Assembly (NCBI GenBank): GCA_022842305.1
Contig: JALHPY010000009.1
Span: forward strand, 1 to 64,000
Length of the DNA stretch: 64,000 nucleotides
Source of the DNA: Rubrivivax sp.
GTDB lineage: Bacteria > Pseudomonadota > Gammaproteobacteria > Burkholderiales > Burkholderiaceae_C
Direction: 5' to 3'
Positions 1,152 through 52,814 of this stretch are shown one piece after another. Below the pieces are notes generated by a model. That model did not search any database, was not told the DNA's origin, and saw only the letters and a program-made list of their open reading frames with translations. Position 1 is the first letter of the stretch, and each line of letters opens with the position of its first letter. The position numbers and the translations under genes were made by a program.

Positions 1152-1197
1152 TACCGCTTTGGGTGATGGCTCCTAACCCATGTGGGTAGTGTGGAAT
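1152..1197. promoter_or_regulatory. Two-dyad operator module A (fcc operon / MBL divergent region)
   Basis: Two imperfect dyads: ACC-N5-GGG centred near 1158 and CCC-N4-GGG (ACCCATGTGGGT) centred near 1181.5, about 23.5 bp apart. On the minus strand the second dyad reads CTACCCACATGGGTTAG, matching copies at 17051 (minus) and 52772 (plus). It lies between the divergent hydrolase (start 1064) and NapC-like gene (start 1321), so it could serve both. Bound factor is inferred, not shown. Confidence 0.55.
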
Positions 1198-1320
1198 CCG
1201 CCGGCCGCAAGCCACCATCGCCTGCCGCAGTTTGGGCGTGGTTCGACTCGAGCGAAGGGGTTCTTCGATGCTGCAGGGCAGGCAAGGCGCGGTCAGGGCT
1301 GGTTACCTGGAATCAAGGGC

Positions 1321-1953
1321 ATGAGCGACAGAAAGCCCGAGCAGACGCCCGCGCAGGATGCGCCGCGCCGCGGCCTGTGGGCGCGCCTGAAGCGCCCGCC
1401 GCAGATGTCGCTGCTGGCCACCGTGTTCGTCGGCCTGATCGGCGGCATAGCTCTGTGGGGCGCGCTCAACACCGGCGTCGAGTGGACCAACCGCACCGAG
1501 TTCTGCCTGTCGTGCCACGAGATGAGCATTCCGTATGCGGAATACAAGAAGACGGTGCACTTCAGCAACCGCAGCGGCACCACCGTGTCCTGCGCCGACT
1601 GCCACGTGGCCGGCAGCAAGCATCCGCTGGACTACGCCCGCAAGCTCACGCTCAAGGTGTTGGCCGCGCGCGACGTCTACGGCCACCTGATGGGCACCAT
1701 CGACACGCCCGAGAAGTACCAGGCCAAGCGCCTGGAGATGGCGCAGCGCGTATGGGCGCGCATGAAGGAAGTGGATTCCAAGGAATGCCGCAACTGCCAC
1801 GACTTCAAGACCATGGACACCACCAAGCAGAAAGACCGCTCCGTGGTGCGCCACGAAAGCGCCATCGAGGACGGCCAGACCTGCATGGACTGCCACAAGG
1901 GCATTGCCCACAACACGATGCCCCCGCCGCAGCAAGCCAAGGCACCCGGCTAG
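1321..1953 (+). CDS. NapC/NirT-family tetraheme cytochrome c
   Basis: A 210-residue membrane-anchored cytochrome with one N-terminal membrane helix (LLATVFVGLIGGIALWGAL, about residues 30-50) and four CxxCH heme sites: CLSCH, CADCH, CRNCH and CMDCH. Spacing and length fit NapC/NirT quinol dehydrogenases, which move electrons between the quinone pool and periplasmic partners. The start is the ATG at 1321 (MSDRKPEQ); an in-frame ATG at 1180 would add 47 implausible residues and lie inside promoter module A. It heads an operon with an EB_dh-type cytochrome and fccAB, so it may carry electrons from sulfide oxidation to quinone, or the reverse. Family assignment is firm; direction is inference. 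Confidence 0.9.
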   Translation: MSDRKPEQTPAQDAPRRGLWARLKRPPQMSLLATVFVGLIGGIALWGALNTGVEWTNRTEFCLSCHEMSIPYAEYKKTVHFSNRSGTTVSCADCHVAGSKHPLDYARKLTLKVLAARDVYGHLMGTIDTPEKYQAKRLEMAQRVWARMKEVDSKECRNCHDFKTMDTTKQKDRSVVRHESAIEDGQTCMDCHKGIAHNTMPPPQQAKAPG

Positions 1954-1987
1954 CCGCGGCCGCGACAACGACACAAGGAGACAAAGC

Positions 1988-3007
1988 ATGCATTTCAAGC
2001 CGCTGTTGCTGGCGCTGTGCGCCTGCCTGGCCGGCAGCGCCTGGGCCGATCCCGACTGGTCCAAGGTGGCGCCGCGCAAGCTCAACCTGTTCTACCCCGG
2101 CCAGGCCGGCATCGAGTGGGTCATGAACAAGGCCGACCACTCGGCCGTGCCCGACATCGTCGACAAGAAGCGCCCCTGCGCCAAGTGCCACGAGGGCGAC
2201 GCGGCCGAGATCGGCGACAAGATCATCGCCGGCAAGCCGCTGGGCAGTTCGCGCGCCGTGCTCGACGCCAGCCCGCCCAAGGGCAAGGCCGGTTCGCTGC
2301 CGGCCACGCTGCAGGTGGCGCACGACGGCAGCAAGATCTACTTCCGCTTCGAGTGGGCATCGCCCAAGGCTGGCGACACCAAGGAGGACGCGCGCAACGA
2401 GGTCAAGCTGACGCTGCTGTTCGACGGTGGCGGCACGGTGGAAGGCGCTGCGCTCAACGGCTGCTGGAGCGCCTGCCACATGGACCTGCAGACCATGCCC
2501 GACGCCAGCGACGCCGCCAAGGGCCACGCCCGCGCCAAGGCCCTGGGCTGGAGCGAAGGCGTCACCAAGTACCTGCCCGAGTCGCGCAGCGCGATCTCCA
2601 TGACCAAGCCGCGCGGCGGCTGGGACAAGCTGCGGCCCGAGGCCGAGATCGCCGCGGCGCTGAAGGCCGGCAAGTTTCTCGACCTGATGCAGTACCGCAG
2701 CGGCAAGGGCGAAAAGCCGGTGGACGGCCACGTGCTGGATTCGCGCCACATGGCCGGCGGCAAGAGCCTGCTGCGCGCCGAAGGCCGCAAGGAAGGCGGC
2801 AAGTGGGTGGTGGTGTTCGAGCGCAGCCTGGCGGCGGGCGGGCCCGGCGACCACGCCATCGTGCCCGATCGCGTCTACGGCTTCGGCTTCGCCATCCACG
2901 AAGACCACGCCGCCGATCGCCATCACCACGTGTCGCTGGGCTACCAGTTCGCGCTGGACAAGGCCATGCCCGACGTGCGCAGCCACATCAACGTGATCAA
3001 GCAGTAG
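1988..3007 (+). CDS. Periplasmic heme protein with ethylbenzene-dehydrogenase-type heme domain
   Basis: A 339-residue exported protein (signal peptide ending GSAWA, mature from DPDWSKV). It has one classical heme site, CAKCH, near residue 62, and a second unusual site, CWSACH (CX3CH), near residue 160. The rest resembles the cytochrome c-552/DMSO-reductase-like heme domain (EB_dh family), which uses axial Met and Lys/His; a His/Met-rich stretch (HEDHAADRHHHVSLGYQF) lies near the C-terminus. ATG 1988 follows AAGGAGACAAAGC. It sits 34 bp after the NapC-like gene and before fccA, suggesting a periplasmic electron carrier between FccAB and NapC. Function is inferred from context. Confidence 0.78.
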   Translation: MHFKPLLLALCACLAGSAWADPDWSKVAPRKLNLFYPGQAGIEWVMNKADHSAVPDIVDKKRPCAKCHEGDAAEIGDKIIAGKPLGSSRAVLDASPPKGKAGSLPATLQVAHDGSKIYFRFEWASPKAGDTKEDARNEVKLTLLFDGGGTVEGAALNGCWSACHMDLQTMPDASDAAKGHARAKALGWSEGVTKYLPESRSAISMTKPRGGWDKLRPEAEIAAALKAGKFLDLMQYRSGKGEKPVDGHVLDSRHMAGGKSLLRAEGRKEGGKWVVVFERSLAAGGPGDHAIVPDRVYGFGFAIHEDHAADRHHHVSLGYQFALDKAMPDVRSHINVIKQ

Positions 3008-3068
3008 CAGGCGCGGCAGCCGGACCGGCGCACGCGCAGTTCAATAACGACGAAGGAGACAAGACACC

Positions 3069-3647
3069 ATGGTCACAAGGCTTTGCAAGACAGCGGCCGG
3101 CGCCGCCGTGCTGCTGCTGTCGCTGGGCACGGCGCTGGCAGCTACCTCGCCCGCGATGCTGTCCAGCGCCTGCGCCGGCTGCCACGGCACCAACGGCGCC
3201 AGCGCCGGGCCCAGCATGCCCAGCCTGGCGGGGCAGTCGCGCATCGCCATCGTCGAGGCCATGAAGGGCTTCAAGAGCGGCGAACGCCCGGCCACGGTGA
3301 TGGGCCGCCTGGCCAAGGGCTACAGCGACGCCGACTTCGAGGCCATGGGCGAGTTCTTCTCCCGGCAGAAGACCTTTGCCAACAGCGGCTCGGCCGACGC
3401 GGCCAAGGCCGCGCAGGGCGCCGACCTGCATGAGCGCCATTGCGCGCGCTGCCACGTCGACGACGGCCGCGAGATCAAGGACAACTCGCCCATCCTGGCC
3501 GGGCAGTGGGTGCGCTACCTCGAGATCCAGATGCAGGACTACGCGGCAGGGCGACGCAAGATGTTCGATCGCAAGCAGGAAAAGATGAAGCCGCTGTCGA
3601 TGCCGGAGCTTGAAGCCCTGGCGCACTACTACGCCAGCGTGAAGTAG
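3069..3647 (+). CDS. fccA: Diheme cytochrome c, FCSD cytochrome subunit
   Basis: A 192-residue exported protein with two cytochrome c domains, CAGCH near residue 35 and CARCH near residue 123, the cytochrome c4-like arrangement of FccA. The signal peptide runs to about residue 24 (LGTALA). It precedes the flavoprotein gene by 15 bp. In flavocytochrome c sulfide dehydrogenase this subunit takes electrons from the FAD subunit after sulfide oxidation. A stand-alone cytochrome c4 is the alternative, but the neighbour makes FccA much more likely. Confidence 0.88.
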   Translation: MVTRLCKTAAGAAVLLLSLGTALAATSPAMLSSACAGCHGTNGASAGPSMPSLAGQSRIAIVEAMKGFKSGERPATVMGRLAKGYSDADFEAMGEFFSRQKTFANSGSADAAKAAQGADLHERHCARCHVDDGREIKDNSPILAGQWVRYLEIQMQDYAAGRRKMFDRKQEKMKPLSMPELEALAHYYASVK

Positions 3648-3662
3648 CCAGGAGCCGCCACC

Positions 3663-4940
3663 ATGAGCACGCAACGCAGAAGTTTCCTCAGGGCCCTGGG
3701 TGCCGGTGCCGGCGCAGCCGTCGCGCTGGCCGGATGCGCCACCACCGGTGAGATGATTCCCCGCAGCGGCCGCCGCGTGGTCGTTGTCGGCGGGGGTTAC
3801 GGCGGCAGCATCGCCGCCAAGTACATCCGCATGAACGACCCCGGCATCGAGGTCGTGCTGATCGAGCAGAACCGTCAGTTCGTGTCCTGCCCCTTCAGCA
3901 ACCTGTACATCGGCGGCCTGCTGAAAGACCTGTCCAGCTTAAGCTTCGGCTACGACAAGCTGGCCGCCAACCACGGCATCAAGATGGTCTACGCCACCGT
4001 CACCGCCATCGACCCGGCGGCGCGCAAGGTGGTCACGACCAGCGGCACCGTCGCCTACGACCGGCTCATCGTCGCGCCCGGCATCGATTTCCGCTTCGAG
4101 GACATCAAGGGCTACGACCCCGAGCGCACGCCCGGGCGCGTGCCGCATGCCTGGAAGGCCGGCGAACAGACCCTGCTGCTGCGCCGCCAGCTCGAGGCCA
4201 TGCGCGACGGCGGCACGGTGGTGATGTCGGTGCCGCTCACGCCCTACCGCTGCCCGCCCGGGCCGTACGAGCGCGCCAGCATGATCGCCATGTACCTGAA
4301 GCAGACCAAGCCCAAGTCCAAGCTCATCGTGCTCGACGCCAACCCCGACATCGTCTCCAAGGCCGGGCTGTTCAAGAAGGGCTGGGCGCGCCACTACGCC
4401 GGCATCATCGACTACCGCGGCGCCAAGAAGGTGACCGAGGTCGACGACGCCACCCGCACCGTGTCGATCGAAGGCCTGGAGGAAGTCAAGGGCGACGTCG
4501 TCAACCTGATTCCGCCGCAGCGCGCCGGGCGCATCGCCGTGGCCGCAGGCCTGGTGGGCCCCGACAAGAACTGGTGCCCGGTGAACCCGACCACCTTCGA
4601 ATCGACCCTGCACAAGGACATCCACGTCATCGGCGACGCGGCGCTGGCCGGCGCCATGCCCAAGTCGGGCTACTCGGCCAACTCCGAGGCCAAGGCCTGC
4701 GCGCTCAACCTGGTGGCGACGATGAACGACCGCGAGCTCAGCGAGTTCTCGGGCATCAACACCTGCTACAGCTTCATCAGCGCCAAGGAGGCGGTGGAAG
4801 TGACCGGTGTCTACAAGGTGGACAAGGGCGCCATCGTGGCCGTGCCCGGCTCGGTGGGCGTGTCACCCGACCTGTCGGAGCTGGAAGCCGTCTACGCCGA
4901 GAGCTGGCTCAAGAACATCCTGACCGAGATGTCGACCTGA
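3663..4940 (+). CDS. fccB: Sulfide dehydrogenase (flavocytochrome c) flavoprotein subunit
   Basis: A 425-residue FAD-dependent disulfide oxidoreductase-fold protein that oxidises sulfide in the periplasm. The N-terminus has a twin-arginine signal (RRSFLRALG) followed by a possible lipobox (LAGC), so the protein may be folded before export and perhaps lipid-anchored. The Rossmann motif VVVVGGGYGGSIAA starts near residue 40. Catalytic-type cysteines include the one in FVSCPFSN and one in NWCPVNP. RBS is AGGAGCCGCCACC before ATG 3663. It ends the operon and is followed at once by a strong hairpin. Confidence 0.93.
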   Translation: MSTQRRSFLRALGAGAGAAVALAGCATTGEMIPRSGRRVVVVGGGYGGSIAAKYIRMNDPGIEVVLIEQNRQFVSCPFSNLYIGGLLKDLSSLSFGYDKLAANHGIKMVYATVTAIDPAARKVVTTSGTVAYDRLIVAPGIDFRFEDIKGYDPERTPGRVPHAWKAGEQTLLLRRQLEAMRDGGTVVMSVPLTPYRCPPGPYERASMIAMYLKQTKPKSKLIVLDANPDIVSKAGLFKKGWARHYAGIIDYRGAKKVTEVDDATRTVSIEGLEEVKGDVVNLIPPQRAGRIAVAAGLVGPDKNWCPVNPTTFESTLHKDIHVIGDAALAGAMPKSGYSANSEAKACALNLVATMNDRELSEFSGINTCYSFISAKEAVEVTGVYKVDKGAIVAVPGSVGVSPDLSELEAVYAESWLKNILTEMST

Positions 4941-4944
4941 ACCC

Positions 4945-4970
4945 GTCAGCGCCCGGCCACGGGCGCTGAC
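4945..4970. terminator. Perfect 10-bp inverted repeat, probable bidirectional terminator
   Basis: GTCAGCGCCC pairs exactly with GGGCGCTGAC around a 6-nt loop (GGCCAC). It fills the 31-bp gap between the convergent ends of fccB and the DsrE-like gene. There is no run of T on either side, so it is either a Rho-assisted stop or a 3'-end stabilising hairpin serving both strands. Confidence 0.75.
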
Positions 4971-4971
4971 C

Positions 4972-5385
4972 TCAGGGCTTGATGTAGGAAGCGCCTTCTT
5001 TCTGCATCTTGGCGATGCGGACCACGCCCGAGGGCGTGAACGTCGCCTCCTGGATGAACTGCTCCTTCTTGAGATTGCGGTTCTTCAGCGTGATCTCGCA
5101 GATCTCGAACTTGACGCCGCGGCTGGCCAGGGCCGAGACCAGTGGCGCGTACTCGGTGCCGCTGGCGTGCTTTTCGCCCTCCATCAGGAAGTCCACGCCG
5201 TTGGCGTGCGTCACCGCGGTGATCTGCGCCTTGGGGTCGACGTCGAGGTGGTTGCGCATGTTGCGCAGCCCCTTCAGACCCTGGACTGCCGCGTCGTCGA
5301 TGTGGTAGACCACGGCGTCCTGGGCGCTGGCCAGGGGCGCGGCCAGGGCGATCAGGCTGCAGACCAGCAGGCGTTTCAGGTTCAT
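4972..5385 (-). CDS. Exported DsrE/F-like small protein
   Basis: A 137-residue protein with a Sec signal (MNLKRLLVCSLIALAAPLASA) and a DsrE/DsrF-like fold (YHIDDAAVQGLKGLRNMRNH, then VDFLMEGEK and EICEITLKNRNL). The single mature cysteine in KFEICEITL is where the family usually keeps its conserved Cys. Periplasmic members of this group are common at the 3' end of sox operons; their role in sulfur handling is not settled. The ATG at 5385 follows GGAGACGAAC. It is the last gene of the minus-strand sox operon, 32 bp after the HbpS-like gene. Confidence 0.75.
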   Translation of the reverse strand: MNLKRLLVCSLIALAAPLASAQDAVVYHIDDAAVQGLKGLRNMRNHLDVDPKAQITAVTHANGVDFLMEGEKHASGTEYAPLVSALASRGVKFEICEITLKNRNLKKEQFIQEATFTPSGVVRIAKMQKEGASYIKP

Positions 5386-5417
5386 GTTCGTCTCCGTATC
5401 GGATGGGGGTCGCGGCA

Positions 5418-12276: not shown

Positions 12277-12645
12277 TCACTTGTAGAACTTGCTGAGCCG
12301 CCGCCGCCCGGGCACGGCCTTCTGGATCACCACGCCGTGCACCGCCTGCAGGTCGGCCAGCGGCAGCTCCGGCAGGCCGGCCTTGAGCGCGCGCAGGGCC
12401 CAGCCCGCGCCGCGCTGGCACAGCTGGCGGAACAGCCATTCGTCGCCCTGCCGCGCCAGCACATAGCTGCCGTCGTGCAGCGCGCCATCGGGCTCGACGA
12501 TGATGATCTCGCCGTGCAGGAACTCCGGTGCCATCTCATCGCCCAGCACGCGCAGCGCAAAGGACTCGCCGCCGCTGCAGCTGGCGGCTGCGGCCTCTTC
12601 CGTGTCCGGCGCGCAGGCGGGTGTCTGGCAGCCACACCCACTCAT
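12277..12645 (-). CDS. S24/LexA-like fold protein without catalytic residues
   Basis: A 122-residue protein with a Cys-rich N-terminus (MSGCGCQTPAC) and a domain following the S24 (LexA/UmuD C-terminal) pattern: LRVLGDEMAPEFLHGEIIIV, then YVLARQGDEWLFRQL. In active S24 proteases the Gly-Asp is followed by the nucleophile Ser and the second motif holds a Lys; here they are Glu and Arg, so self-cleavage looks impossible. No DNA-binding domain. It stands 58 bp after the ferredoxin-reductase gene and its TGA overlaps an in-frame ATG of the soxC frame (TGATG). Role unknown; a scaffold or redox-responsive protein is conceivable. Confidence 0.65.
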   Translation of the reverse strand: MSGCGCQTPACAPDTEEAAAASCSGGESFALRVLGDEMAPEFLHGEIIIVEPDGALHDGSYVLARQGDEWLFRQLCQRGAGWALRALKAGLPELPLADLQAVHGVVIQKAVPGRRRLSKFYK

Positions 12646-16152: not shown

Positions 16153-16749
16153 TCAGTGGGGCGTGCCCACCGCGGCAGCCGAGCGGTGCGGCACGAACAG
16201 GCCGCAGCCCAGCAGTCGGTGGGCTCCCAGGCCGCTGTCCAGCAGCTGGCGCGCGCCGGCGGCGGACAGGCCGTCGAGCATCAGGCTGAAGCCGTGCAGG
16301 CCGTCTTCGTCCAGCGCCTGGTGGCGGCCGCAGATGGCGCGGCAGGCCAGCCCCAGGGCGTCCAGCTCGGCCTGCACCGCGGCCAGGAAGTCGGCTTCGT
16401 CGGCACCCGTCTCAGCCGCCACCAGGTGTGCGTACAAGGTGCCGTGCGGCAGCAGTTCGCGCAGCTGCGGCGCGCCCAGGCGCAGGCGCACCGGGCCCAG
16501 GTCCAGCGCCTGGCCCTGCAGTGCCGCGGCAGCGGCGGCACGCTCGCGCGGCAGGCGCAGCGTGAGCCGGGTGCGACCCGACAGCAGCGCCTGCGCGCCG
16601 CCGCCGGCAGACACATTGAGGCGGTGCACGCCCGCCCCGGGCAGCGTGGGCAGCCAGGGCAGCGCCTGCGCCAGCGCGGCGGCCAGCGCGCGCCGGTGCT
16701 GGCGCGGCACGCTGGTGGCATCCTGCAGGGCGAAGGCCAGGTCGATCAT
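16153..16749 (-). CDS. Orphan Cas6-like RAMP protein (Cas6/Cmx6 type)
   Basis: A 198-residue protein whose C-terminus, GAHRLLGCGLFVPHRS, matches the glycine-rich loop of Cas6 RNA endonucleases, especially the form annotated as type I-MYXAN Cas6/Cmx6; the N-terminal half (MIDLAFAL...HRLNVSAGG) fits a ferredoxin-like fold. Possible catalytic His residues are in GVHRLNV, RHQAL and PHRSA. I see no CRISPR repeats or other cas genes in the window. It overlaps the 71-aa gene upstream (ATGA at 16746-16749). An RNA-binding or RNA-processing role in this sulfur operon is inference; annotation by remembered motif only. Confidence 0.6.
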   Translation of the reverse strand: MIDLAFALQDATSVPRQHRRALAAALAQALPWLPTLPGAGVHRLNVSAGGGAQALLSGRTRLTLRLPRERAAAAAALQGQALDLGPVRLRLGAPQLRELLPHGTLYAHLVAAETGADEADFLAAVQAELDALGLACRAICGRHQALDEDGLHGFSLMLDGLSAAGARQLLDSGLGAHRLLGCGLFVPHRSAAAVGTPH

Positions 16750-16961: not shown

Positions 16962-17007
16962 GGAAGGCCCATCAAAGGCGGCATTGAGCGCGCCGCGCCA
17001 GTGGCCT

Positions 17008-17056
17008 GTCCATACCCGGTACGGGTGAGCGCCGAATAGCCCATACGGGTAGTGGC
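17008..17056. promoter_or_regulatory. Two-dyad operator module B between accessory/sox operon and dsrA
   Basis: Dyads TACCC-GGTAC-GGGT style (ACCCGGTACGGGT, centre 17020) and GCCCATACGGGT (centre 17044.5), 24.5 bp apart. Read on the minus strand it is CTACCCGTATGGGCTAT then CACCCGTACCGGGTATGGAC, ending about 47 bp before ATG 16961. Read on the plus strand it matches module D (GCCCAT-CGGG-A-TGG). It sits between two divergent operons and can serve both; dsrA starts 129 bp downstream. Confidence 0.7.
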
Positions 17057-17184
17057 GGCCCACCCTCAACGGTCTATCTTCGCTACCCAACGAGAGTGAT
17101 AGCGGGCGGCCGCCCATGCCGCCACGATTCATCCCCACAGTGGCAGCCGGCGCGGCGAGCCCCATAGAACTGGAGACAAGCTGC

Positions 17185-18480
17185 ATGGCCAAGAAACCGC
17201 ACGACACACCGATGCTCGACGAGCTCGAGTCCGGCCCCTGGCCCAGCTTCGTGACCGGGCTCAAGCGCCTGGCCAACGACAAGGACTACATGGTCGACCT
17301 GATGGGTCAGCTGGAGACGTCCTACCGCACCAAGAAGGGCTACTGGAAAGGTGGCACGGTGGGCGTGTTCGGCTACGGCGGGGGCGTGATCCCGCGCTTC
17401 ACCGAGCTGAAGGACGAGAAAGGCGCGCCGGTATACCCCGACGCGGCCGAGTTCCACACGCTGCGCATCCAGCCGCCGGCCGGCATGCACTACGACACCG
17501 CGGTGCTGCGCAAGATGTGCGACATCTGGGAAGAGCACGGCTCGGGCCTGATCGCCTTCCACGGCCAGAGCGGCGACATCATGTTCCAGGGCGCCAAGAC
17601 CGACAAGGTGCAGGACGCCTTCGACGCCCTCAACGAACTGGGCTTCGACCTGGGCGGCGCCGGCCCCGCGGTGCGCACCTCGATGAGCTGCGTGGGCGCG
17701 GCGCGCTGCGAACAAAGCTGCTACGACGAGGCGCGCGCGCACCGCCAGGTGCTGAACAACTTCCTCGACGACATCCACCGCCCGGCCCTGCCCTACAAGT
17801 TCAAGTTCAAGTTCAGCGGCTGCGGCAACGACTGCATGAACTCGATCCAGCGCTCGGACATGGCCGTGATCGGCACCTGGCGCGACAACATGCGCACCGA
17901 CGAGGCGCTGGCGCGCAAGTGGTTCGACAAGCACGGCATGAACGAGCTGGTCAACGACGTCATCTCGCGCTGCCCGACCAAGACCATCCTGCTGAAGGAA
18001 GTCAAGGACGTCGCCGCGGGGGACCGCATCAGCAGCGTCAAGCTCAACGACACCCACGCGCTGGAGATCGACAACAGCAACTGCGTGCGCTGCATGCACT
18101 GCATCAACGTGATGACCGGCGCGCTGGCGCACGGCACCGACACCGGCGCCACCATCCTGATCGGCGGCAAGCGCACGCTCAAGATCGGCGACCTGATGGG
18201 CACCGTGATCGTGCCCTTCATGCCCCTGAAGACCGACGAGGACTACGACGCCCTGGTCGAGCTGGGCCAGAAGGTCATCGACTTCTTCGCCGAGAACGCG
18301 CTCGAGCACGAGCGCACTGGCGAGATGATCGAACGCATAGGCCTGGTGAACTTCCTCGAAGGCATCGGCGTGGAGATCGACGCCAACATGGTGTCGGCCC
18401 CCCGTACCAACCCCTATGTGCGCACCGACGGTTGGGACGACGAGGTCGCCCGCATCAACGCCCAGAAGTCGGCAGCCTGA
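17185..18480 (+). CDS. dsrA: Reverse-type dissimilatory sulfite reductase alpha subunit
   Basis: A 431-residue cytoplasmic siroheme enzyme subunit that oxidises DsrC-bound sulfur toward sulfite. The siroheme-[4Fe-4S] motifs CVGAARC (CX5C) and CGNDC (CX3C) are intact near residues 174 and 213, and the inserted ferredoxin domain has CVRCMHC. ATG 17185 follows GGAGACAAGCTGC; the frame is open further upstream but without a plausible start. It heads a 14.8-kb plus-strand operon. Presence of dsrL, dsrEFH and dsrN with it marks the oxidative (reverse) type. Confidence 0.97.
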   Translation: MAKKPHDTPMLDELESGPWPSFVTGLKRLANDKDYMVDLMGQLETSYRTKKGYWKGGTVGVFGYGGGVIPRFTELKDEKGAPVYPDAAEFHTLRIQPPAGMHYDTAVLRKMCDIWEEHGSGLIAFHGQSGDIMFQGAKTDKVQDAFDALNELGFDLGGAGPAVRTSMSCVGAARCEQSCYDEARAHRQVLNNFLDDIHRPALPYKFKFKFSGCGNDCMNSIQRSDMAVIGTWRDNMRTDEALARKWFDKHGMNELVNDVISRCPTKTILLKEVKDVAAGDRISSVKLNDTHALEIDNSNCVRCMHCINVMTGALAHGTDTGATILIGGKRTLKIGDLMGTVIVPFMPLKTDEDYDALVELGQKVIDFFAENALEHERTGEMIERIGLVNFLEGIGVEIDANMVSAPRTNPYVRTDGWDDEVARINAQKSAA

Positions 18481-34070: not shown

Positions 34071-34116
34071 TACCCCAAAAGGGCTATTCGCCGCCTGCCC
34101 CATCCCGGTAGTAGAC
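34071..34116 (+). promoter_or_regulatory. Two-dyad operator module E before sat
   Basis: TACCCCAAAAGGGCTATTC followed by CCCCATCCCGGTAGTAGAC; dyad centres near 34078 and 34103.5, 25.5 bp apart. The stretch GGGCTATTC-GCC is identical or near-identical to the one in module B (minus) and close to module C. It lies 125 bp before the sat ATG. The rest of 33898-34240 shows only module F and no gene. Confidence 0.65.
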
Positions 34117-34240
34117 GCCTGCAGCCGCATCTTGCCCAATGCGCCAGCACCACGCGCAGCACAGGGTCGCACGTCGGCCCGGAGCCCCATTGAGCGTCGT
34201 GCACCGTCCTCCATCGGCAGAAGCACAAGAAGGCCCATCG

Positions 34241-35446
34241 ATGAACAGCTTGGTCAGCCCGCACGGCAGCTCGGAATTGAAGCCGCTGCTGCTGTCGGGC
34301 CCCGCGCTCGAGCAGGAGCGCAGCCGCGCGCAGTCCCTGCCCCAGTGGCGGGTGAGTTCGCGTGAGCGCGGCGACATCATCATGATGGGCATCGGCGGCT
34401 TCACGCCGCTCGAAGGCTTCATGGGCCAGGACGACTGGCGCAGCGTCTGCGACACCCTGCACACCGCGGCGGGCCTGTTCTGGCCGATCCCGATCACGCT
34501 GTCGGCCGACGAAGCCTTCGCGTCGGCCATCGCACCCGGCGGCGAGATCGCGCTCGTCGACCCCGACGACGGCCACGTGCTGGCAACGATGCGCGTGACC
34601 GAGCAGTACGCCATCGACAAGGCGCATGAATGCGTCCGCGTCTTCCGCACCAACGACCCCGCGCACCCCGGCGTGCGCATGGTGATGGACCAGCCGGCGG
34701 TCAACCTTGCCGGGCCGGTGAAGGTGCTGTCGCAGGGCGGCTTCCCCGAGAAGTACGGCGACCTGTTCATGACGCCGGCGCAGACACGCACGCTGTTCGA
34801 GTCCTACGGCTGGACACGCATCGCCGCCTTCCAGACGCGCAACCCCATGCACCGCTCGCACGAGTACCTGGCCAAGGTGGCGATCGAGGTCTGCGACGGG
34901 GTGCTGGTGCACTCGCTGCTCGGCGCCTTGAAGCCAGGCGATATCCCGGCCGATGTGCGCACCCAGGCCATCGCCGCGCTGGCGAAGAACTACTTCGTGC
35001 CCTCGACGATCGTGCAGGCCGGCTATCCGCTGGACATGCGCTACGCCGGCCCGCGCGAAGCGTTGCTGCACGCCCTCTTTCGCCAGAACTACGGCTGTTC
35101 GCACCTGATCGTCGGCCGCGATCACGCCGGCGTCGGCAGCTACTACGGGCCGTTCGAGGCACACCAGATCTTCGACGAGATCCCGGAAGATGCGCTGCTG
35201 ACCAAGCCGCTGAAGATCGACGTGTCGTTCTGGTGCCACCGCTGCGGCGGCATGGCTTCGGCGCGCACCTGCCCGCACACCGATGCAGACCGCCTGCAGG
35301 TCTCGGGCACCCAGTTGCGCAAGTGGCTGTCCGAAGGCGCCGACGTTCCCCCGCAGTTCAGCCGGCCGGAAGTGGTTGAAATCCTCCGCGCCTATTACGC
35401 CGAGTTGGACGCAGCACCTGCCCCCGCGGCCGCTGCCCCGAGGTGA
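34241..35446 (+). CDS. sat: ATP sulfurylase
   Basis: A 401-residue dissimilatory-type sulfurylase that turns adenylylsulfate plus pyrophosphate into ATP and sulfate. Signatures [13 protein letters not shown] and [13 protein letters not shown] are intact, and four C-terminal cysteines ([15 protein letters not shown]) suggest a zinc site seen in this sat subgroup. ATG 34241 begins MNSLVSPHG. Together with aprMBA it forms the AMP-dependent sulfite oxidation route. Confidence 0.96.
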
Positions 35447-40962: not shown

Positions 40963-41386
40963 TCGGCGAGCGCTGACGCGGGCCGGGCGGCGCCTGGCCC
41001 TGGTCGGCGGGCACATCGCCAGGATGCTTGCGCCCTCAGCCGGCAGCTCGATCGGCGCGCAACCCCGGCATTGACCGCTGCGATCGCCGGCGGCGCAATG
41101 CCACGGCCACCGGGTTCGAGGCAAGCCATTGGTGCAGACACGCGTGTTCTCGCGACGCACCCTGTGACGTGCTGCGCGCGCCCCGCCGCGGCCACTCGGT
41201 CCGTCGTGCCCGCTGTCCACGGCGCGTACCCCTGACGGGTAGGTTGCGCTACGCCCATCCGGGAATGGACGCAAGCGCCGGCCCCGCGTTCAATCGCCCC
41301 ATGCGCCTGCCGGGACGTGTCAGTGGCCTTGCTCCTGCGCAAAGAAGAAGCCGCCTGACTGGCCGACACGACCTCAACAAAAGCCC
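40963..41386 (+). other. Intergenic region with the soe control module
   Basis: About 424 bp without a convincing gene. It contains module D at 41227-41270. A T-loop-like GGTTCGAG near 41113 is not part of a tRNA. No T-rich terminator is seen after the rhodanese gene; a GC-rich region at about 40980-41005 may pair weakly. Confidence 0.6.
41227..41270 (+). promoter_or_regulatory. Two-dyad operator module D before soeA
   Basis: TACCCCTGACGGGTAGG (centre 41234) and GCCCATCCGGGAATGGAC (centre 41258.5), 24.5 bp apart, the same spacing as module B. The end AATGGAC corresponds to TATGGAC in B and AATAGAC in C, perhaps the -10 region of an activator-dependent promoter. soeA starts 117 bp downstream. 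Confidence 0.65.
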
Positions 41387-44308
41387 ATGGCCCGATCTCC
41401 GCTGCATGACCCGCTAGCCGATCCGGATGCCGGTGCCGCGCGCGAGACGCGCAACACCACCTGCTACATGTGCGCCTGCCGCTGCGGCATCCGCGTGCAC
41501 CTGCGCGACGGCAAGGTGCGCTACATCGACGGCAACCCCGACCACCCGCTGAACCAGGGCGTTATCTGCGCCAAGGGTTCGTCGGGCATCATGAAGCAGT
41601 ACTCGCCGGCCCGCCTGACCAAGCCGCTCAAGCGCCGCGAAGGTGCCGAGCGGGGGGCGGCCGACTTCGTCGAGATCGAGTGGGAAGAGGCCTTCGCCAC
41701 CTTGACCGAGCGGCTGGCGCGCATCCGCTCCACCGACCCGAAGAAGTTCGCGCTCTTCACCGGGCGTGACCAGATGCAGGCGCTGACGGGCCTGTTCGCA
41801 CGCCAGTTCGGCACCCCCAACTACGCCGCGCACGGCGGCTTCTGCTCGGTCAACATGGCCGCCGGCATGATCTACACGATCGGCGGCTCGTTCTGGGAGT
41901 TCGGCGGCCCCGACCTCGACCGCGCCAAGCTGTTCGTGATGATCGGCACCGCGGAGGACCACCACTCCAACCCGATGAAGATCGCGCTCGCCAAGTTCAA
42001 GCGCGACGGCGGCCGCTTCGTCTCGATCAACCCGGTGCGCACCGGCTATTCGGCGATCGCCGACGAGTGGGTGCCGATCCGCCCCGGCACCGACGGCGCC
42101 TTCCTGCTCGCAGTGATCCACGAGATCCTGGCCAAGGGCCTGTACGACCGCGACTTCGTCGTGCAGTACAGCAACGGCGGCGAGCTGGTCAACCTCGACG
42201 CCGCGCACGACGAGTTCGGCATGTTCGTGCGCACCGAGGTGCCGGCCGAGGAAGCCTGCTACGACCCGCAGAACAAGCTGTGGTGGGACCGGCACACCGA
42301 CAAACCGGTGGTCAGCCACACGCCGGGGGCCGATCCGTTCCTGCTCGGTGAGTTCAAGCTGTCCGACGGCACGCCCGTCAAGCCGTCGTTCCAGTTGCTG
42401 CAGGACCGGGTCAAGGACTACACGCCCGAATGGGCGGCGCAGATCACCGGCATCCCGGCCGAGACGATCAGGCGCCTGGCGCACGAGATGGGCATCACCG
42501 CGCGCGACCAGCGCATCGAGCTGCCGATCGCCTGGACCGACTCGTGGGGCAAGGAGCACGACACCGTCAGCGGCAACCCGGTGGCCTTCCACGCCATGCG
42601 CGGGCTGGCGGCGCATTCGAACGGTTTCCAGACCATCCGGGCGCTGGCGATCCTGATGTCGCTGCTGGGCACGATCGACCGGCCCGGGGGCTTTCGCCAC
42701 AAGGCGCCGTTCCCGCGCCCGATCCCGCCTTGCGCGCGCACGCCCAACGACGCGCGCGCAGTCAAGCCGAACAGCCCGCTCGACGGCATGGCGCTGGGCT
42801 GGCCCTCGGACCCGGATGACCTGTTCGTCAACGACGACGGCAGCCCGGTGCGCATCGACAAGGCGTTCTCCTGGGAGTACCCGCTGTCGGTGCACGGCCT
42901 GATGCACAACGTGATCACCAATGCCTGGCGCGGCGACCCGTACCGCATCGACACGCTGCTGATCTTCATGGCCAACATGTCGTGGAACTCCACGATGAAC
43001 ACGGTCGAAGTCAGGAAGATGCTGAACGACAAGGACGAGGCCGGCGAGTACAAGATCCCGTTCCTCGTCGTCGCCGACGCCTTCCATTCGGAGATGACGG
43101 CATTCGCCGACCTGATCCTGCCCGACACCACCTACCTCGAGCGGCACGACGTGATGTCGATGCTCGATCGGCCGATCAGCGAGTTCACCGGGCCGGTCGA
43201 CGCGGTGCGCATCCCGGTCGTGCCCCCCAGCGGCGACTGCAAGCCGTTCCAGGAGGTGCTGATCGAGATCGGCACGCGGCTGAAGCTGCCCACCTTCGTC
43301 ACCAAGGAAGGCCAGCGCAAGTACCGCGACTACCCCGACTTCGTCGTCAACTGGGAGACCGAGCCGGGCAGCGGCATCGGCTTCCTGGCCGGCTGGCGCG
43401 GCAAGGGCGGCGAGAAGTTCCTGGTCGGCGAACCGAATCCCAGGCAGTGGGAGATGTACGCGCAGCACGACTGCGTGTTCCACCACGAACTGCCGCGCAG
43501 CTACCAGTACATGCGCAACTGGAACCAGGGCTACCTGGAGTGGAGCCGCGCCAACCGCATCACGCGCTACGCCGAGCCGATCCTGATCCACCTGTACTCG
43601 GAGGTGCTGCAACGCTTCCGCACCGCGGCACAAGGCAAGGGCCTGACGCGCAAGCCGCCGCAGCACCTGGCGAAGCGCATCGAGACCTACTTCGACCCGC
43701 TGCCCTTCTTCTACGAGCCGCTCGAGGCGCACGTCACCGACAAGCACAAGTACCCGCTGGCCGCGGTGACGCAGCGGCCGATGGCGATGTACCACTCGTG
43801 GGACTCGCAGAACGCCTGGCTGCGCCAGATCCACACCTACAACCTGCTGCACATCAACACCCAGACCGCCCGCGCCGCCGGCATCGCCGACGGCGACTGG
43901 GTCTGGGTCGAGTCGCAGTGGGGCCGCGTGCGCTGCAAGGCGGCGCACTCACAGGCGGTCGAGCCAGGCACCGTCTGGACCTGGAACGCCATCGGCAAGG
44001 CGGCCGGCGCCTGGAACCTGGAGCCCGACGCCAACGAGTCGCGTCAAGGCTTCCTGCTCAACCACGTGATCAGCGAGGAACTGCCGGTGCGCGGCAGCGA
44101 CGCGCGCGTCTCCAACTCCGACCCGATCACGGGCCAGGCCGCCTGGTACGACGTGCGGGTGCGCGTGGTCAAGGCCGAGGACGGCGAGCCGCAGGCCACC
44201 GCGCCGCAGTTCGGGGCGATGCGGCCCTACCCCGGCATGGCCGAGCGGCCGCGCGAGCTGGTCTCGCTGAGCGGGCTGCTGGCCACGCTGAAGAGGCGCG
44301 TGCGATGA
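41387..44308 (+). CDS. soeA: Sulfite dehydrogenase SoeA, molybdopterin subunit
   Basis: A 973-residue cytoplasmic member of the complex iron-sulfur molybdoenzyme family. The N-terminal [4Fe-4S] motif TCYMCACRCGI with the last Cys in VICAKGSSG is intact. There is no Tat signal, in line with the cytoplasm-facing SoeABC that oxidises sulfite directly to sulfate. It is about the length of known SoeA. Polysulfide or thiosulfate reductase is the alternative, but absence of a signal and the soeBC partners favour SoeA. Confidence 0.88.
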   Translation: MARSPLHDPLADPDAGAARETRNTTCYMCACRCGIRVHLRDGKVRYIDGNPDHPLNQGVICAKGSSGIMKQYSPARLTKPLKRREGAERGAADFVEIEWEEAFATLTERLARIRSTDPKKFALFTGRDQMQALTGLFARQFGTPNYAAHGGFCSVNMAAGMIYTIGGSFWEFGGPDLDRAKLFVMIGTAEDHHSNPMKIALAKFKRDGGRFVSINPVRTGYSAIADEWVPIRPGTDGAFLLAVIHEILAKGLYDRDFVVQYSNGGELVNLDAAHDEFGMFVRTEVPAEEACYDPQNKLWWDRHTDKPVVSHTPGADPFLLGEFKLSDGTPVKPSFQLLQDRVKDYTPEWAAQITGIPAETIRRLAHEMGITARDQRIELPIAWTDSWGKEHDTVSGNPVAFHAMRGLAAHSNGFQTIRALAILMSLLGTIDRPGGFRHKAPFPRPIPPCARTPNDARAVKPNSPLDGMALGWPSDPDDLFVNDDGSPVRIDKAFSWEYPLSVHGLMHNVITNAWRGDPYRIDTLLIFMANMSWNSTMNTVEVRKMLNDKDEAGEYKIPFLVVADAFHSEMTAFADLILPDTTYLERHDVMSMLDRPISEFTGPVDAVRIPVVPPSGDCKPFQEVLIEIGTRLKLPTFVTKEGQRKYRDYPDFVVNWETEPGSGIGFLAGWRGKGGEKFLVGEPNPRQWEMYAQHDCVFHHELPRSYQYMRNWNQGYLEWSRANRITRYAEPILIHLYSEVLQRFRTAAQGKGLTRKPPQHLAKRIETYFDPLPFFYEPLEAHVTDKHKYPLAAVTQRPMAMYHSWDSQNAWLRQIHTYNLLHINTQTARAAGIADGDWVWVESQWGRVRCKAAHSQAVEPGTVWTWNAIGKAAGAWNLEPDANESRQGFLLNHVISEELPVRGSDARVSNSDPITGQAAWYDVRVRVVKAEDGEPQATAPQFGAMRPYPGMAERPRELVSLSGLLATLKRRVR

Positions 44309-45039
44309 GCCGCAAGCAGCTCGCGCTCGTCATCGACCTCAACGTCTGCGTGGGCTGCCACGCCTGCGTCACCAGCTGCAAGGAGTGGAACGGTGCCGGC
44401 GCCGCCGGGCCGATGAGCGACCAGAACCCCTTCGGCGCCGACCCCAGCGGTACCTTCTTCAACCGCGTGCAGACCTTCGAGGTGGGCGAGTTCCCGCACA
44501 CCGAGACCGTGCACTTCCCCAAGAGCTGCCTGCACTGCGAAGACCCGCCCTGCGTGCCGGTATGCCCGACCGGCGCCTCCTACAAGCGCGCCGAGGACGG
44601 CATCGTGCTCGTCGACTACGACAAGTGCATCGGCTGCAAGTACTGCAGCTGGGCCTGCCCGTACGGCGCGCGCGAGCTCGACGCGAACCAGAAGGTGATG
44701 AAGAAGTGCACGCTGTGCGTGGATCGCATCTACGACACCCGCCTCGCCGAGATCGACCGCAAGCCGGCCTGCGTCAAGGCCTGCCCCACCTCGGCGCGCC
44801 TGTTCGGCGACATCCACGACCCGCAGTCCGAGGTCTCGCGCGCGATCCGCGACAACGGCGGCTACGCACTGATGCCCGAGTGGGGCACCCACCCGGCCAA
44901 CCACTACCTGCCGCGGCGCAAGACCAGGCTGCGCATCCACGACGACGAACTGGTGCGCGCCGACAACCCGCTCACCGTCGAAGGCCACCTGCCGCAGCCG
45001 GCGGCCGGCACCGCCACGCTCGAAGACGCCAGCGTCTAG
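44305..45039 (+). CDS. soeB: Sulfite dehydrogenase SoeB, iron-sulfur subunit
   Basis: A 244-residue four-cluster ferredoxin protein with CVGCHACVTSCK, CLHCEDPPCVPVCP, CIGCKYCSWACP and CTLCVDR...CVKACP. It carries electrons from SoeA to the membrane subunit. The ATG at 44305 overlaps the soeA TGA. Confidence 0.93.
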   Translation: MSRKQLALVIDLNVCVGCHACVTSCKEWNGAGAAGPMSDQNPFGADPSGTFFNRVQTFEVGEFPHTETVHFPKSCLHCEDPPCVPVCPTGASYKRAEDGIVLVDYDKCIGCKYCSWACPYGARELDANQKVMKKCTLCVDRIYDTRLAEIDRKPACVKACPTSARLFGDIHDPQSEVSRAIRDNGGYALMPEWGTHPANHYLPRRKTRLRIHDDELVRADNPLTVEGHLPQPAAGTATLEDASV

Positions 45040-45082
45040 CGCCACCGTCCCTTCCCCCCTGCCGCACGCCTGCCCGAGCCCG

Positions 45083-46072
45083 ATGAATCCCGCCTTCTCC
45101 GTCATCCTGCTCACGACGCTGATCGGTGCCGGCCAGGGCCTCTTCCTGGCGCTGGCCACGCTGCAGCTCTATGCCCTGGCGGGCCTGTTGCCGCCGGCGC
45201 AGGGCAGCGCGCTGTTCGTCGCCGGCAGCGCGGCCGCGCTGGTGCTGCTGGCCGGGGGCCTGGTGGCGTCGTTCTTCCACCTCGGGCGCCCCGAGCGCGC
45301 CTGGCGCTCGGCGGCGATGTGGCGCACCTCGTGGCTGTCGCGCGAGGTGATCGTGCTTCCGGCCTTCATGGCGGCGGTGGCGCTCTATGGGCTGCTGTTC
45401 CTGAGCGGCTGGGACCCGGTGCTGATGACTTCGGCGCGCGGCGTCGAGATCGATCTTGCGCTCGCGGTCGCCGTGCTCGGCACGGTGCTCGCGCTCGCGC
45501 TCTTCGTCTGCACCGGCATGATCTACGCTGCGGTGCGCTTTCTCGCCGAGTGGCACACGGCGCTGACACCGCTGAACTACACGCTGATGGGCGGCGCTTC
45601 GGGGTTCACGCTGGCCGCCGGCCTGGCGGCGCTGGTCGAGCCGCAGCGGGTGGCGTTCCTGGCCGGCTGGGCGATCGTGCTGACGGCGCTGGCCGCCGCG
45701 GGCCGCGTCGCATCGCTGCTGCGCAATGCGCGTCTCAAACCCCGTTCGACCATCCAGTCGGCGATCGGCATCAAGCATCCGGTGGTGGTGCAGCGCTCGA
45801 TGGGCTTCATGGGCGGTTCGTTCAACACGCGCGAGTTCTTCCACGGCGCGTCGGCGCTCTGGCTGCGCACGGTGAAGCCGGCCTTCCTGCTGCTGGCCTT
45901 CGTGCTGCCGCTGGCGCTGCTCGTGCTCGGGCGCGCTCAGCCGCTGGAGTCCTCGACGCCGACGCTGCTCGCCGCCTTCGGCGTGCAGTACCTCGGGCTG
46001 CTGGCCGAGCGCTGGTTCTTCTTCGCCCAGGCCCGGCACCCGCAGAACCTCTACTACCAGGCCGTTTCCTGA
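45083..46072 (+). CDS. soeC: Sulfite dehydrogenase SoeC, DmsC-like membrane subunit
   Basis: A 329-residue protein with about eight helices (LLTTLIGAGQGLFLALATLQL first) of the DmsC family, linking SoeAB to quinone. The C-terminus is FFAQARHPQNLYYQAVS, which is copied in a remnant at 46671. It starts 43 bp after soeB. Confidence 0.92.
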   Translation: MNPAFSVILLTTLIGAGQGLFLALATLQLYALAGLLPPAQGSALFVAGSAAALVLLAGGLVASFFHLGRPERAWRSAAMWRTSWLSREVIVLPAFMAAVALYGLLFLSGWDPVLMTSARGVEIDLALAVAVLGTVLALALFVCTGMIYAAVRFLAEWHTALTPLNYTLMGGASGFTLAAGLAALVEPQRVAFLAGWAIVLTALAAAGRVASLLRNARLKPRSTIQSAIGIKHPVVVQRSMGFMGGSFNTREFFHGASALWLRTVKPAFLLLAFVLPLALLVLGRAQPLESSTPTLLAAFGVQYLGLLAERWFFFAQARHPQNLYYQAVS

Positions 46073-50748: not shown

Positions 50749-51371
50749 GTGACGCCCTCAACTACCTCATCAAGGCGCGCGGTGACGCGCTCGGCCACTA
50801 CTTCGCCTTCCTCAAGGAGTGCGGCAAGCACCTGGACCCGAAGACGCGCAACCTGATCAGCGTGATCACCAAGGTCGACGCGCAGACCGAGCGCGGCTTC
50901 AGGCAGTACCTGGGCCGTGCGCTGCGCGAGGGCTGCACGCCCGTGGAGGTGCTGGACGCGCTGCTGATGGCCTTCCCCACGCTGGGCCTGGCCAAGATCG
51001 TCTGGGCGGCGGACATCATCCTGGCGATGGACCTGCCAGAGTTCCAGCCCGGCGCCATGGGCGCGGCCGGCGAATGGCACGACGTCATGGCCACCAAGGG
51101 CTTCAAGGACGGCCAGACACAGCGCGTCGAGTGCGACGGCCGCGGCCTGTTCGTGCACCGTGCAGGCAAGGACTGGCGCGTCTACGACAGCCGCTGTCCG
51201 CACCAGACCACCAACATCCCCGATCTGGCGTTGCACGAGTGCAAGTTGACATGCCCCAAACATGGGTGGGTATTCGACGTTCAGACTGGCAACTGCATCG
51301 AGAAGGGCAACAGCCCGCTGCGGCTGTGGCCCAGCAAGGTGGCCAAGGGCCGCCTGCTTGCGCGCTGGTGA
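50745..51371 (+). CDS. Carboxymuconolactone-decarboxylase-like/Rieske fusion protein
   Basis: A 208-residue protein. Residues 1-100 are an AhpD/CMD-like helical domain without the CXXC pair (DPKTRNLISVITKVDAQTE; LGLAKIVWAADI). Residues 110-208 are a Rieske [2Fe-2S] domain with SRCPHQTTN and LTCPKHGWVFD (CxH...CxxH). No signal peptide, so it is cytoplasmic. It overlaps sulP2 (ATGA). Role unknown; perhaps an electron-transfer or sensing protein. Confidence 0.8.
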   Translation: MSDALNYLIKARGDALGHYFAFLKECGKHLDPKTRNLISVITKVDAQTERGFRQYLGRALREGCTPVEVLDALLMAFPTLGLAKIVWAADIILAMDLPEFQPGAMGAAGEWHDVMATKGFKDGQTQRVECDGRGLFVHRAGKDWRVYDSRCPHQTTNIPDLALHECKLTCPKHGWVFDVQTGNCIEKGNSPLRLWPSKVAKGRLLARW

Positions 51372-51424
51372 ACGCGCCGGCACCGTATTCAACTCCCCTT
51401 CTTCACCCACAAAAGGAAACGAAC

Positions 51425-52750
51425 ATGCGCGCGACACCCCGGCTCTTCAAACTCACATCATTGGCCTCGCTGTGCGCGTTCGCGTTGCCGGCACTGGCCA
51501 CCAACGGCATGAATATGGAAGGCTATGGGCCCGTCTCCACCGCCATGGGCGGCGCGTCGCAGGCACTGGACCATGGCACCGCGGCCATGGCGCAGAACCC
51601 GGCCACCTTGGGCCTGATGGCCCCGGGCGCGCGCCTGGACGCCGCCTTCGGCGTGCTGGGCCCCGACGTGGCCAGTTCGGTCCCCGGCGCGACCGCCAAG
51701 TCCGGTGGCACCTCCTACGTCATGCCGGCCTTCGGCTACGCGCGGCGCAGCGGCAGCCTGACCTACGGCGTGGGCATGTTCGCGCAAGGCGGCATGGGCA
51801 CCGAGTACGACGGCAATGCGTTCTTCACGGCCGGCGGCTCGGGCCGGGAGACCCGCTCCGAGCTCGGCGTAGGGCGCTTGCTGTTGCCGCTCGCCTGGGA
51901 GGTGGCGCCGAACTTCATCGTCGGCGGCTCGATCGACTTCGTCTGGGCCAACCTCGACCTGCGCATGGAATTGCCGGGCAGCCGGTTGGCCAGCTTGGTG
52001 ACCGGCACCCCATCGGGCGGGCTGGCCAGTCAACTGGGGCCGCTGTCGGGATCGCCCTGGGTCCGCATCGACTTCTCGGACGACAACGACTTCAGCGGCG
52101 CCGCCCGGTCCACCGGCTGGGCCTTCAAGCTGGGCGCGGTCTGGAAGGCGAGCCCGAGCTTCACTTTGGGAGCGTCATACCAGGGCAAGACGACGCTGGA
52201 CGACATGAAGACCGGCACCACCGGCGCGGCGATGAGCGGCCCCGGTGGTTTCGGCGACGCTGGCCGCATCACGGTGCTCGACTTCCAGTGGCCGACTCTG
52301 TTGGCTATCGGCGGCGCCTGGCAAGCGACTCCGGCGCTGCTGGTGGCGGCCGACGTCAAGCGCATCGGCTGGTCGGACGTCATGGAGAGCTTCAAGATGC
52401 GCTACGACAGCGCCGGCTTCGGCGGCTCGGTGACCTTCGCGCTGCCGCAGCAGTGGAAGGACCAGACCGTCGTCAACCTCGGCGTGGCCTATGCCTTGAA
52501 CCAGCAGTTCACGCTGCGCGCCGGCTACAACCATGCCGACAATCCGATTCCGGAAGCCTTCGTGAACCCGCTGTTCCCGGCCACTGTCGAGAACCACTAC
52601 ACGCTGGGCCTGGGCTGGCAGGTCGCGCCCCGCCACGCCGTCAACGCCTCGCTCACCGTGGCCCCCGAGAGCAGCGTGACCAACGGCGACGGCATCGTCG
52701 TCACGCACAAGCAGACCAACGTGCAGGTGATGTACAGCTTCCGCTTCTGA
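51425..52750 (+). CDS. FadL/TodX-family outer-membrane channel
   Basis: A 441-residue beta-barrel protein with a signal peptide ending ALPALA, the FadL hatch sequence TNGMNMEGYGPVSTAMGGAS and a terminal Phe (YSFRF). FadL channels import hydrophobic compounds. In a sulfur locus it may pass polysulfide or elemental sulfur, which is inference. RBS AAAGGAAACGAAC. Confidence 0.88.
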   Translation: MRATPRLFKLTSLASLCAFALPALATNGMNMEGYGPVSTAMGGASQALDHGTAAMAQNPATLGLMAPGARLDAAFGVLGPDVASSVPGATAKSGGTSYVMPAFGYARRSGSLTYGVGMFAQGGMGTEYDGNAFFTAGGSGRETRSELGVGRLLLPLAWEVAPNFIVGGSIDFVWANLDLRMELPGSRLASLVTGTPSGGLASQLGPLSGSPWVRIDFSDDNDFSGAARSTGWAFKLGAVWKASPSFTLGASYQGKTTLDDMKTGTTGAAMSGPGGFGDAGRITVLDFQWPTLLAIGGAWQATPALLVAADVKRIGWSDVMESFKMRYDSAGFGGSVTFALPQQWKDQTVVNLGVAYALNQQFTLRAGYNHADNPIPEAFVNPLFPATVENHYTLGLGWQVAPRHAVNASLTVAPESSVTNGDGIVVTHKQTNVQVMYSFRF

Positions 52751-52771
52751 GCAAGCTGCGGCCGCCGCCCC

Positions 52772-52814
52772 TACCCGGATGGGCTATCCCCCATCCCCCG
52801 TCGCGGGAATAGAC
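52772..52814 (+). promoter_or_regulatory. Two-dyad operator module C before tusA
   Basis: TACCCGGATGGGCTAT (centre 52778.5) and CCCGTCGCGGGAATAGAC (centre 52802), 23.5 bp apart. The first box matches module B (minus) TACCCGTATGGGCTAT at all but one base. The tusA ATG lies 65 bp downstream. Confidence 0.7.

Follow-up and report, generated by a model that had tools for sequence, protein, structure and literature searches.

A 64,000-nucleotide stretch of Rubrivivax sp. (the window; contig C9, JALHPY010000009.1, of a 5.19-Mb draft genome, G000) carries at five places a paired element of two GC-rich dyads, here called the module, through which an adjacent NarL-type two-component system very probably switches sulfur oxidation on. 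Gene calls and family matches place fcc, sox, dsr, sat-apr, soe, and tusA-dsrE2-yeeE genes in the window, with a NarL-type regulator gene and a GAF/HisKA_3 kinase gene, both on the minus strand, between dsr and sat. The module is predicted to be a switch because it lies upstream of sulfur-oxidation promoters, here and in relatives, and co-occurs with this one neighboring system; judged by its sequence, it is a real, specific, and conserved operator-promoter of a sulfur-oxidation regulon. A sequence-only reading of the window had proposed a dedicated sulfur-regulon operator, and this is supported by genome-wide specificity, recurrence at non-homologous promoters, the sulfur genes faced by 84 of 89 copies in relatives, and co-occurrence with the kinase in 32/32 genomes. 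The favored reading, at a probability of roughly 80%, is that the module combines an operator for activation with a weak sigma-70-type promoter and is bound by the adjacent NarL-like regulator. Computation shows that the element recurs, that its geometry resembles a promoter's, which genes surround it, and that it accompanies the kinase; we infer the binder, the activation, and the signal.

The five sites and their specificity

The module was originally written as TACCC-N4/5-GGG followed by CCC-N4/5-GGG, which is exact at three of the five sites (starting at 17008, 41227, and 52772), whereas site 1 has TACCG-CTTT-GGG and site 3 has CCCC-ATCC-CGG as its second dyad. Two dyads are present at all five places, with a measured center-to-center spacing of 22.5 to 24.5 bp rather than the 23.5 to 25.5 bp claimed. 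The literal pattern with TACCC has no other occurrence in the window and none in 200 shuffles; without the leading TA, the same number of shuffles average 0.385 occurrences with a maximum of 2. A single fixed-gap pattern recovered one unrelated place only in the Rubrivivax genome, because dyad spacings vary, and regular-expression scans, which missed many copies, were superseded by profiles.

Profile R1, a sequence-only model, was built from an alignment (A1) of 17 copies from relatives and none from the window, so as to avoid circularity; A1 omits L042, a repeat of L043, and L040, the window's own locus. Across the 5.19-Mb genome the five sites are the top five of 12 R1 matches, with expectation values (E) from 2.6e-16 to 0.043 (Table 1), followed by a sixth at 0.36, and no match within genes or before unrelated operons has an E below 0.36; this search scored the best 150 of 7,551 first-look candidates, so weak copies may be missed. 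On the window alone all five have an E of ≤5.1e-4 and the sixth match has 0.085, and none of the 41 window matches at E ≤ 10 falls in the two non-sulfur gaps (59640-60080 and 57020-57138) that had been named as free of the module.

Class-held-out matrices, each trained on one promoter class without any window copy, were run over the window, and 60 resampled windows served for comparison. The dsr-only matrix gives 43.8 for tusA, 32.9 for sat, and 27.9 for soeA (resampled maximum, 10.2); the tusA-only matrix gives 46.5 for dsr, 37.4 for sat, and just 12.8 for soeA (maximum, 10.0); and a matrix from soeA plus two Rieske copies gives 46.9, 43.9, 42.9, and 32.2 for tusA, dsr, sat, and soeA, respectively (maximum, 14.6). 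The class training copies had been chosen with R1, itself built from mixed classes; the window scan alone escapes this selection. The module is not one conserved spacer; it is a predicted element common to non-homologous sulfur promoters. That the sites are chance GC-rich palindromes, or intergenic DNA yet to diverge, is barely credible: 44 single CCC-N4/5-GGG dyads occur in the window, whose GC content is 69%, but chance is countered by the shuffles, the genome-wide ranking, the held-out classes, and the gene context, and the operons behind module copies are different genes.

Placement before sulfur operons, claimed for all five sites, stands for sat, soeA, and tusA and needs amendment for the other two. 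Site 1 fronts the napC-like/EB_dh-like/fccAB cluster 1.9 kb ahead of fccA and is the weakest member, scoring below the resampled maximum with all three class matrices, probably because these include the -35 and -10 elements that it lacks; its neighbor gene has a relative in 2 of 81 genomes, its own included, too few for a test of conservation. Site 2 is most promoter-like on the minus strand, towards the DUF6967/dsrC-like/sox operon, and dsrA has further dyads of its own. Three sites (1, 2, and 3), and not two as first described, lie between divergent genes, site 3 having the kinase gene on the side away from sat.

Predicted promoter anatomy and the dsr array

Among 82 labelled copies (70 unique), the distal dyad is CCC-N4-GGG in 58/70 unique copies and the proximal dyad CCC-N5-GGG in 48/70. 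The proximal dyad is followed by TRGAC in 69 unique copies and by TTGAC in one, then by a 17- or 18-bp spacer and a hexamer that ends in AAT in 69/70. The TATGGAC, AATAGAC, and AATGGAC endings had been offered as a possible -10 region; since an AAT-ending hexamer (CTCAAT, GCTAAT, or CCTAAT-like) lies 17 to 18 bp downstream, the TRGAC element is better read as a putative -35. With the -10 set at -12 to -7, arithmetic puts the proximal dyad center near -44 and the distal near -68. Sites 2 to 5 have a predicted sigma-70 geometry, with -35 and -10 elements 17 to 18 bp apart and dyads abutting the -35, and site 1 does not.

At dsr the dyads form an array of four with centers at 17020, 17044, 17067.5, and 17091 and a period of about 24 bp, in which the distal dyad of site 2, read on the plus strand, is the second dyad before dsrA (center about 17044.5). 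Judged by eye, dsr copies that are short of about one unit keep the last dyad in the same phase. A TCTATC stretch in 24/31 dsr copies may be the dsrA -10, although copies without it retain the last dyad and their own -35 and -10 (also by eye).

This anatomy bears on whether the module instead serves repression, by the adjacent regulator or by a different factor, until a sulfur signal lifts the block. SoxR and sHdrR, among the known regulators of thiosulfate oxidation, are repressors (PMC12423496; this and the other papers are cited from part of their text), but the dyads precede the -35-like hexamer and leave the -10 uncovered, a common position for an activator, the hexamers are poor, and NarL activates from similar positions; repression is accordingly given a low probability, the lowest but one of the readings weighed here.

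The predicted regulon across the genus

A survey of 81 genus genomes, the Rubrivivax genome included, yields 95 R1 matches at E ≤ 0.01 in 36 genomes. Ninety-three were placed among genes (G001:C130:29067 and G094:C277:10361 were omitted), and four are from the Rubrivivax genome itself. The 89 others face tusA (32), DUF6967 with dsrA divergent (30), soeA (15), sat (3), Rieske genes (2), or none of the window's genes (7), such that 82 face genes of the window's types. The remaining seven comprise two before TauE sulfite-exporter genes, one (G021:C49, 31 bits) before a gene that matches no Pfam family, and four weak matches (18.7 to 22.6 bits); with TauE counted, sulfur genes are faced by 84/89.

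In two congeners a strong module copy is immediately followed by the TauE/SafE gene (L240:2532-3593 and L241:3-635, the latter open frame cut by the contig end), and sulfite export is a likely addition to the predicted regulon. In G117 an IS1595-type transposase gene (L228:446-1375, minus strand) follows a strong module copy, and so an insertion may now sit behind a sulfur promoter.

Co-occurrence with the adjacent kinase

With kinase-positive defined as a kinase match at E ≤ 1e-60 (32/81 genus genomes) and module-positive as an R1 match at E ≤ 1e-6, the module is present in 32/32 kinase-positive versus 2/49 kinase-negative genomes, the two exceptions being G072 and G073 (82% and 80% complete). 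soxB is present in 66/81 genomes, and the module occurs in 31/31 soxB-positive genomes with the kinase versus 1/35 without it. dsrA is present in 32/81 genomes; G023 is the only one with dsrA and no module, and it also lacks a kinase ortholog. Three kinase-positive genomes in which dsrA was not found (73 to 96% complete) still carry modules.

The closest named relatives of the kinase are from Rubrivivax, Ideonella, Azohydromonas, and other Burkholderiales. The regulator gene follows the kinase gene in all 15 named Burkholderiales loci, dsr-cluster genes in the window's order follow the regulator in 13 of these, and, the window aside, 51 fetched loci contain the regulator gene. In six named loci (L003, L004, L005, L006, L010, and L012) the module occupies the interval between the kinase and soeA or sat; it is beside the kinase and next to an unlabelled gene in L016, and is further off, before soeA, in L007 and L008. 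Azohydromonas sediminis, a cultivated relative, carries the kinase/regulator pair together with two modules.

The regulator and the sensor kinase

The regulator has full-length NCBIfam and PDB matches and is a NarL-type response regulator with receiver and LuxR-type helix-turn-helix domains; the phosphoacceptor Asp, D56, is present in 52/52 aligned rows (46 distinct; alignment A2, from which L016 was omitted for a stop codon). Its best match among solved structures is Escherichia coli NarL (157 bits), and the recognition helices are near-identical (TVKLHVRHIL versus TVKVHVKHML in E. coli). NarL heptamers are TACCC-type half-sites. The regulator falls below the NarL equivalog model NF007935, at 209.8 bits against a cut-off of 250 (scored on a 492-amino-acid [aa] frame that contains it). 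This adjacent NarL-like protein is the most likely regulator of the module; we infer that it binds the tandem dyads and activates from there.

The 395-aa kinase has a NarX-like transmitter core (GAF-like, HisKA_3, and HATPase), and Pfam finds just GAF_2, HisKA_3, and HATPase_c and no nitrate-sensor part, no transmembrane prediction having been made; five NarX-like paralogues have open frames of 642 to 709 aa. Cysteines C87, C90, and C108 are present in 53/53 aligned kinase rows (47 distinct); in a 16-row alignment every row keeps C90 and C108, but not every row has C87. Proteobacterial NarX and NarQ possess a GAF-like domain (PMC8199190). That the cysteines read sulfur is a guess, and it would fit the presence of a tusA/yeeE operon in the regulon together with the signalling role that the title of PMC11582611 assigns to YeeE-like SoxT proteins. 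A structure model of the kinase (mean predicted local distance difference test score, 77.5; predicted template modelling score, 0.49), the fold of which was not compared, supports no claim.

Another factor, either a genuine NarXL pair or an unlinked regulator, might bind the module, with the adjacent pair simply accompanying the sulfur genes. The Rubrivivax genome does code elsewhere for a longer NarX-like kinase (G000:C79:9945-11072, minus strand; open frame of 654 aa) whose NarL-like partner shares 43% identity with the regulator, perhaps a true nitrate system, but genomes with paralogues only, such as G007, G032, G003, G064, G018, and G103, have no module, and in several lineages the module sits directly between the kinase/regulator pair and its divergent neighbor; binding by another factor is unlikely, if a shade less so than repression.

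If the adjacent regulator is the binder, its phosphorylated form would bind as two dimers, one on each dyad, through TACCC-type half-sites. The proximal dimer would sit beside a degenerate -35 (TRGACG) and the distal dimer one dyad further upstream, and the two would jointly bring in RNA polymerase where the -10 is poor. At dsr the four dyads would serve both directions. The partner kinase would be a NarX-related enzyme minus the nitrate-sensing part, and the three conserved cysteines of its GAF domain may read cytoplasmic reduced sulfur or redox state.

Several points weigh against the favored reading. Two more kinase-negative genomes, G092 (4.9e-4) and G096 (4.7e-3), have weak R1 matches at E ≤ 0.01. 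Co-occurrence was scored on the kinase alone with cut-offs chosen after the matches were seen, and the next kinase match past the cut-off (G077; 36% identical) is at 1.1e-59. The Fisher values of 1.5e-20 and 5e-18 ignore relatedness and overstate independence because relatives share ancestry. A position matrix found no module in 6 of the 15 named loci (L002, which is short, L009, L011, L013, L014, and L015), and R1 has no match in many order-level genomes with 40 to 46% identical kinases. Of the 17 training copies, 11 reappear among the 81 genomes, as 12 rows; with these removed, 72/77 matches face sulfur genes. No common-form -35 or -10 is seen at site 1. The half-sites stand 1 to 2 bp closer than in the 7-2-7 inverted heptamers of NarL (PMC7419079), which would give N6 where the module dyads have mostly N4 (distal) and N5 (proximal). 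NarX-like paralogues carry cysteines near the C87, C90, and C108 positions, so the three may be inherited, and the idea that they are special to the sulfur kinase is weakened; the review of NarX and NarQ, in the part drawn on, reports no evidence of any sensing by the GAF-like domain (PMC8199190).

Reach beyond the genus

Outside the genus there are 63 dsrA-positive genomes (64 of 300 order-level genomes with the Rubrivivax genome). A kinase relative is present in 61 of these at E ≤ 1e-30 and in 49 at E ≤ 1e-60, some being paralogues. R1 matches at E ≤ 0.01 occur in 19/63, so that R1 finds no module in most. In a looser test, two dyads 22 to 26 bp apart and ≤350 bp upstream of dsrA were compared with resampled versions of the same sequences (P ≤ 0.02) at 30 loci, 28 from other families, one from the same family (G344), and one from the same genus (G023), with L051 unused. 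The paired dyad passes in 26/30, the misses being G323 and G202 (neither with a pair), G023 (0.145), and G060 (0.06); some of the passing pairs are distant from dsrA and may not be the operator. Several order-level genomes (G142, G323, G262, G168, G247, and G281) have two dsrA copies at separate places.

A broader proposal, for which the odds are a little short of even, is that a single ancient system, derived from nitrate-sensing NarX/NarL and now responding through cysteines to a sulfur signal in the cytoplasm, serves the whole lineage as master activator of betaproteobacterial Dsr-type sulfur oxidation, acting through phased, close-set arrays of NarL-like dyads and in both directions at dsr.

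Features of the window

The dsr/sox operon includes a gene (16153-16749, minus strand) with a Pfam Cas6 match (E, 5e-49), and nine fetched relatives (L041 and L043 to L050) retain it next to DUF6967 and dsrA. A small Peptidase_S24-like gene (12277-12645, minus strand) lies within the sox/tauD stretch. The window ends in a separate cluster (60081-63974) with two response regulators, multihaem and b-type cytochrome genes, and a sigma-54 activator fragment, in which the R1 scan of the window finds no clear module.

Table 1. Module sites, predicted promoter elements, and associated genes, in window coordinates
Feature	Position	Strand	Remarks
Metallo-beta-lactamase-fold gene	96-1064	-	Left of site 1
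Site 1, two dyads, centers about 1158.5 and 1181.5	1152-1197		Between metallo-beta-lactamase-fold gene and napC-like/EB_dh-like/fccAB cluster; R1 E 1.6e-4 genome-wide, minus orientation, model positions 4-45
napC-like/EB_dh-like/fccAB cluster	1321-4940	+	Right of site 1
-10-like CTCAAT	16983-16988	-	Promoter facing DUF6967 (gene start 16961)
Site 2 proximal dyad and -35-like TGGACA (17012-17007)	17007-17028	-	R1 E 2.6e-16 genome-wide
Site 2 distal dyad TACCCGTATGGGCTAT	17036-17051	-	For operon DUF6967/Cas6-like/dsrC-like/sox
Two further dyads towards dsrA, centers about 17067.5 and 17091	17060-17103	+	
-35-like TAGCGG and -10-like CACGAT	17100-17105 and 17123-17128	+	Before dsrA (17185); chosen by eye
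dsrA	17185-18480	+	Downstream of four-dyad array
NarL-like response regulator, 218 aa	32021-32677	-	Proposed module binder
Kinase GAF-HisKA_3-HATPase, 395 aa	32677-33864	-	Conserved cysteines C87, C90, C108
Site 3: distal dyad, proximal dyad, -35-like TAGACG (34112-34117)	34071-34117	+	Facing sat; R1 E 3.2e-7
-10-like CCCAAT	34135-34140	+	Before sat
sat	34241-35446 (start about 34241)	+	Downstream of site 3
Site 4: distal dyad, proximal dyad, -35-like TGGACG (41266-41271)	41227-41271	+	Facing soeABC; R1 E 0.043 genome, 5.1e-4 window
-10-like TTCAAT	41289-41294	+	Before soeA
soeABC-like genes	41468-46072 (soeA start about 41468)	+	Downstream of site 4
Site 5: distal dyad, proximal dyad, -35-like TAGACG (52810-52815)	52772-52815	+	Facing tusA-dsrE2-yeeE; R1 E 3.3e-13
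-10-like GCTAAT	52834-52839	+	Before tusA
tusA, dsrE2-like, yeeE-like (Sulf_transp) genes	52879-54734 (tusA start 52879)	+	Downstream of site 5

Comparison with known systems

A full-text literature search, with subscription papers mostly outside it and sources available in part, returned no regulator or operator described for Dsr-type sulfur oxidation in betaproteobacteria, nor the close dyad spacing, target set, or spread of the module. The present analysis names a candidate regulator and an operator with base-level coordinates, together with a predicted regulon (dsr, sat-apr, soe, tusA-dsrE2-yeeE, and TauE); it suggests a way in which a nitrate-type system can be re-used for sulfur, and it opens the control of lithotrophic sulfur oxidation to direct tests in relatives that can be cultivated.

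Regulation of dsr genes is known from Allochromatium vinosum (Grimm et al. 2010, as cited in PMC3397948), which is a gammaproteobacterium. SoxR and sHdrR likewise control thiosulfate oxidation, but they are single-protein, ArsR-type sulfane-sulfur repressors of another family (PMC12423496). The sulfide-responsive NreB/NreC of Bacillus licheniformis is also a kinase/regulator pair that activates sulfur-oxidation genes (sqr and pdo), although with a PAS sensor, other target genes, and a Gram-positive host (PMC9918477). NarX/NarL at E. coli ogt shares the HisKA_3-type kinase, the NarL-type regulator, and a tandem arrangement in which one site adjoins the -35 and another lies farther upstream; at ogt, NarL sites at -44.5 and -77.5 act together in activation, and a site relocated to -67.5 also supports it (PMC7419079). 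The module system differs in targeting sulfur-oxidation genes, in its kinase without a nitrate sensor, in its more closely set half-sites, and in a distal dyad near -68 rather than -77.5, and it is a variant of NarL-type control.

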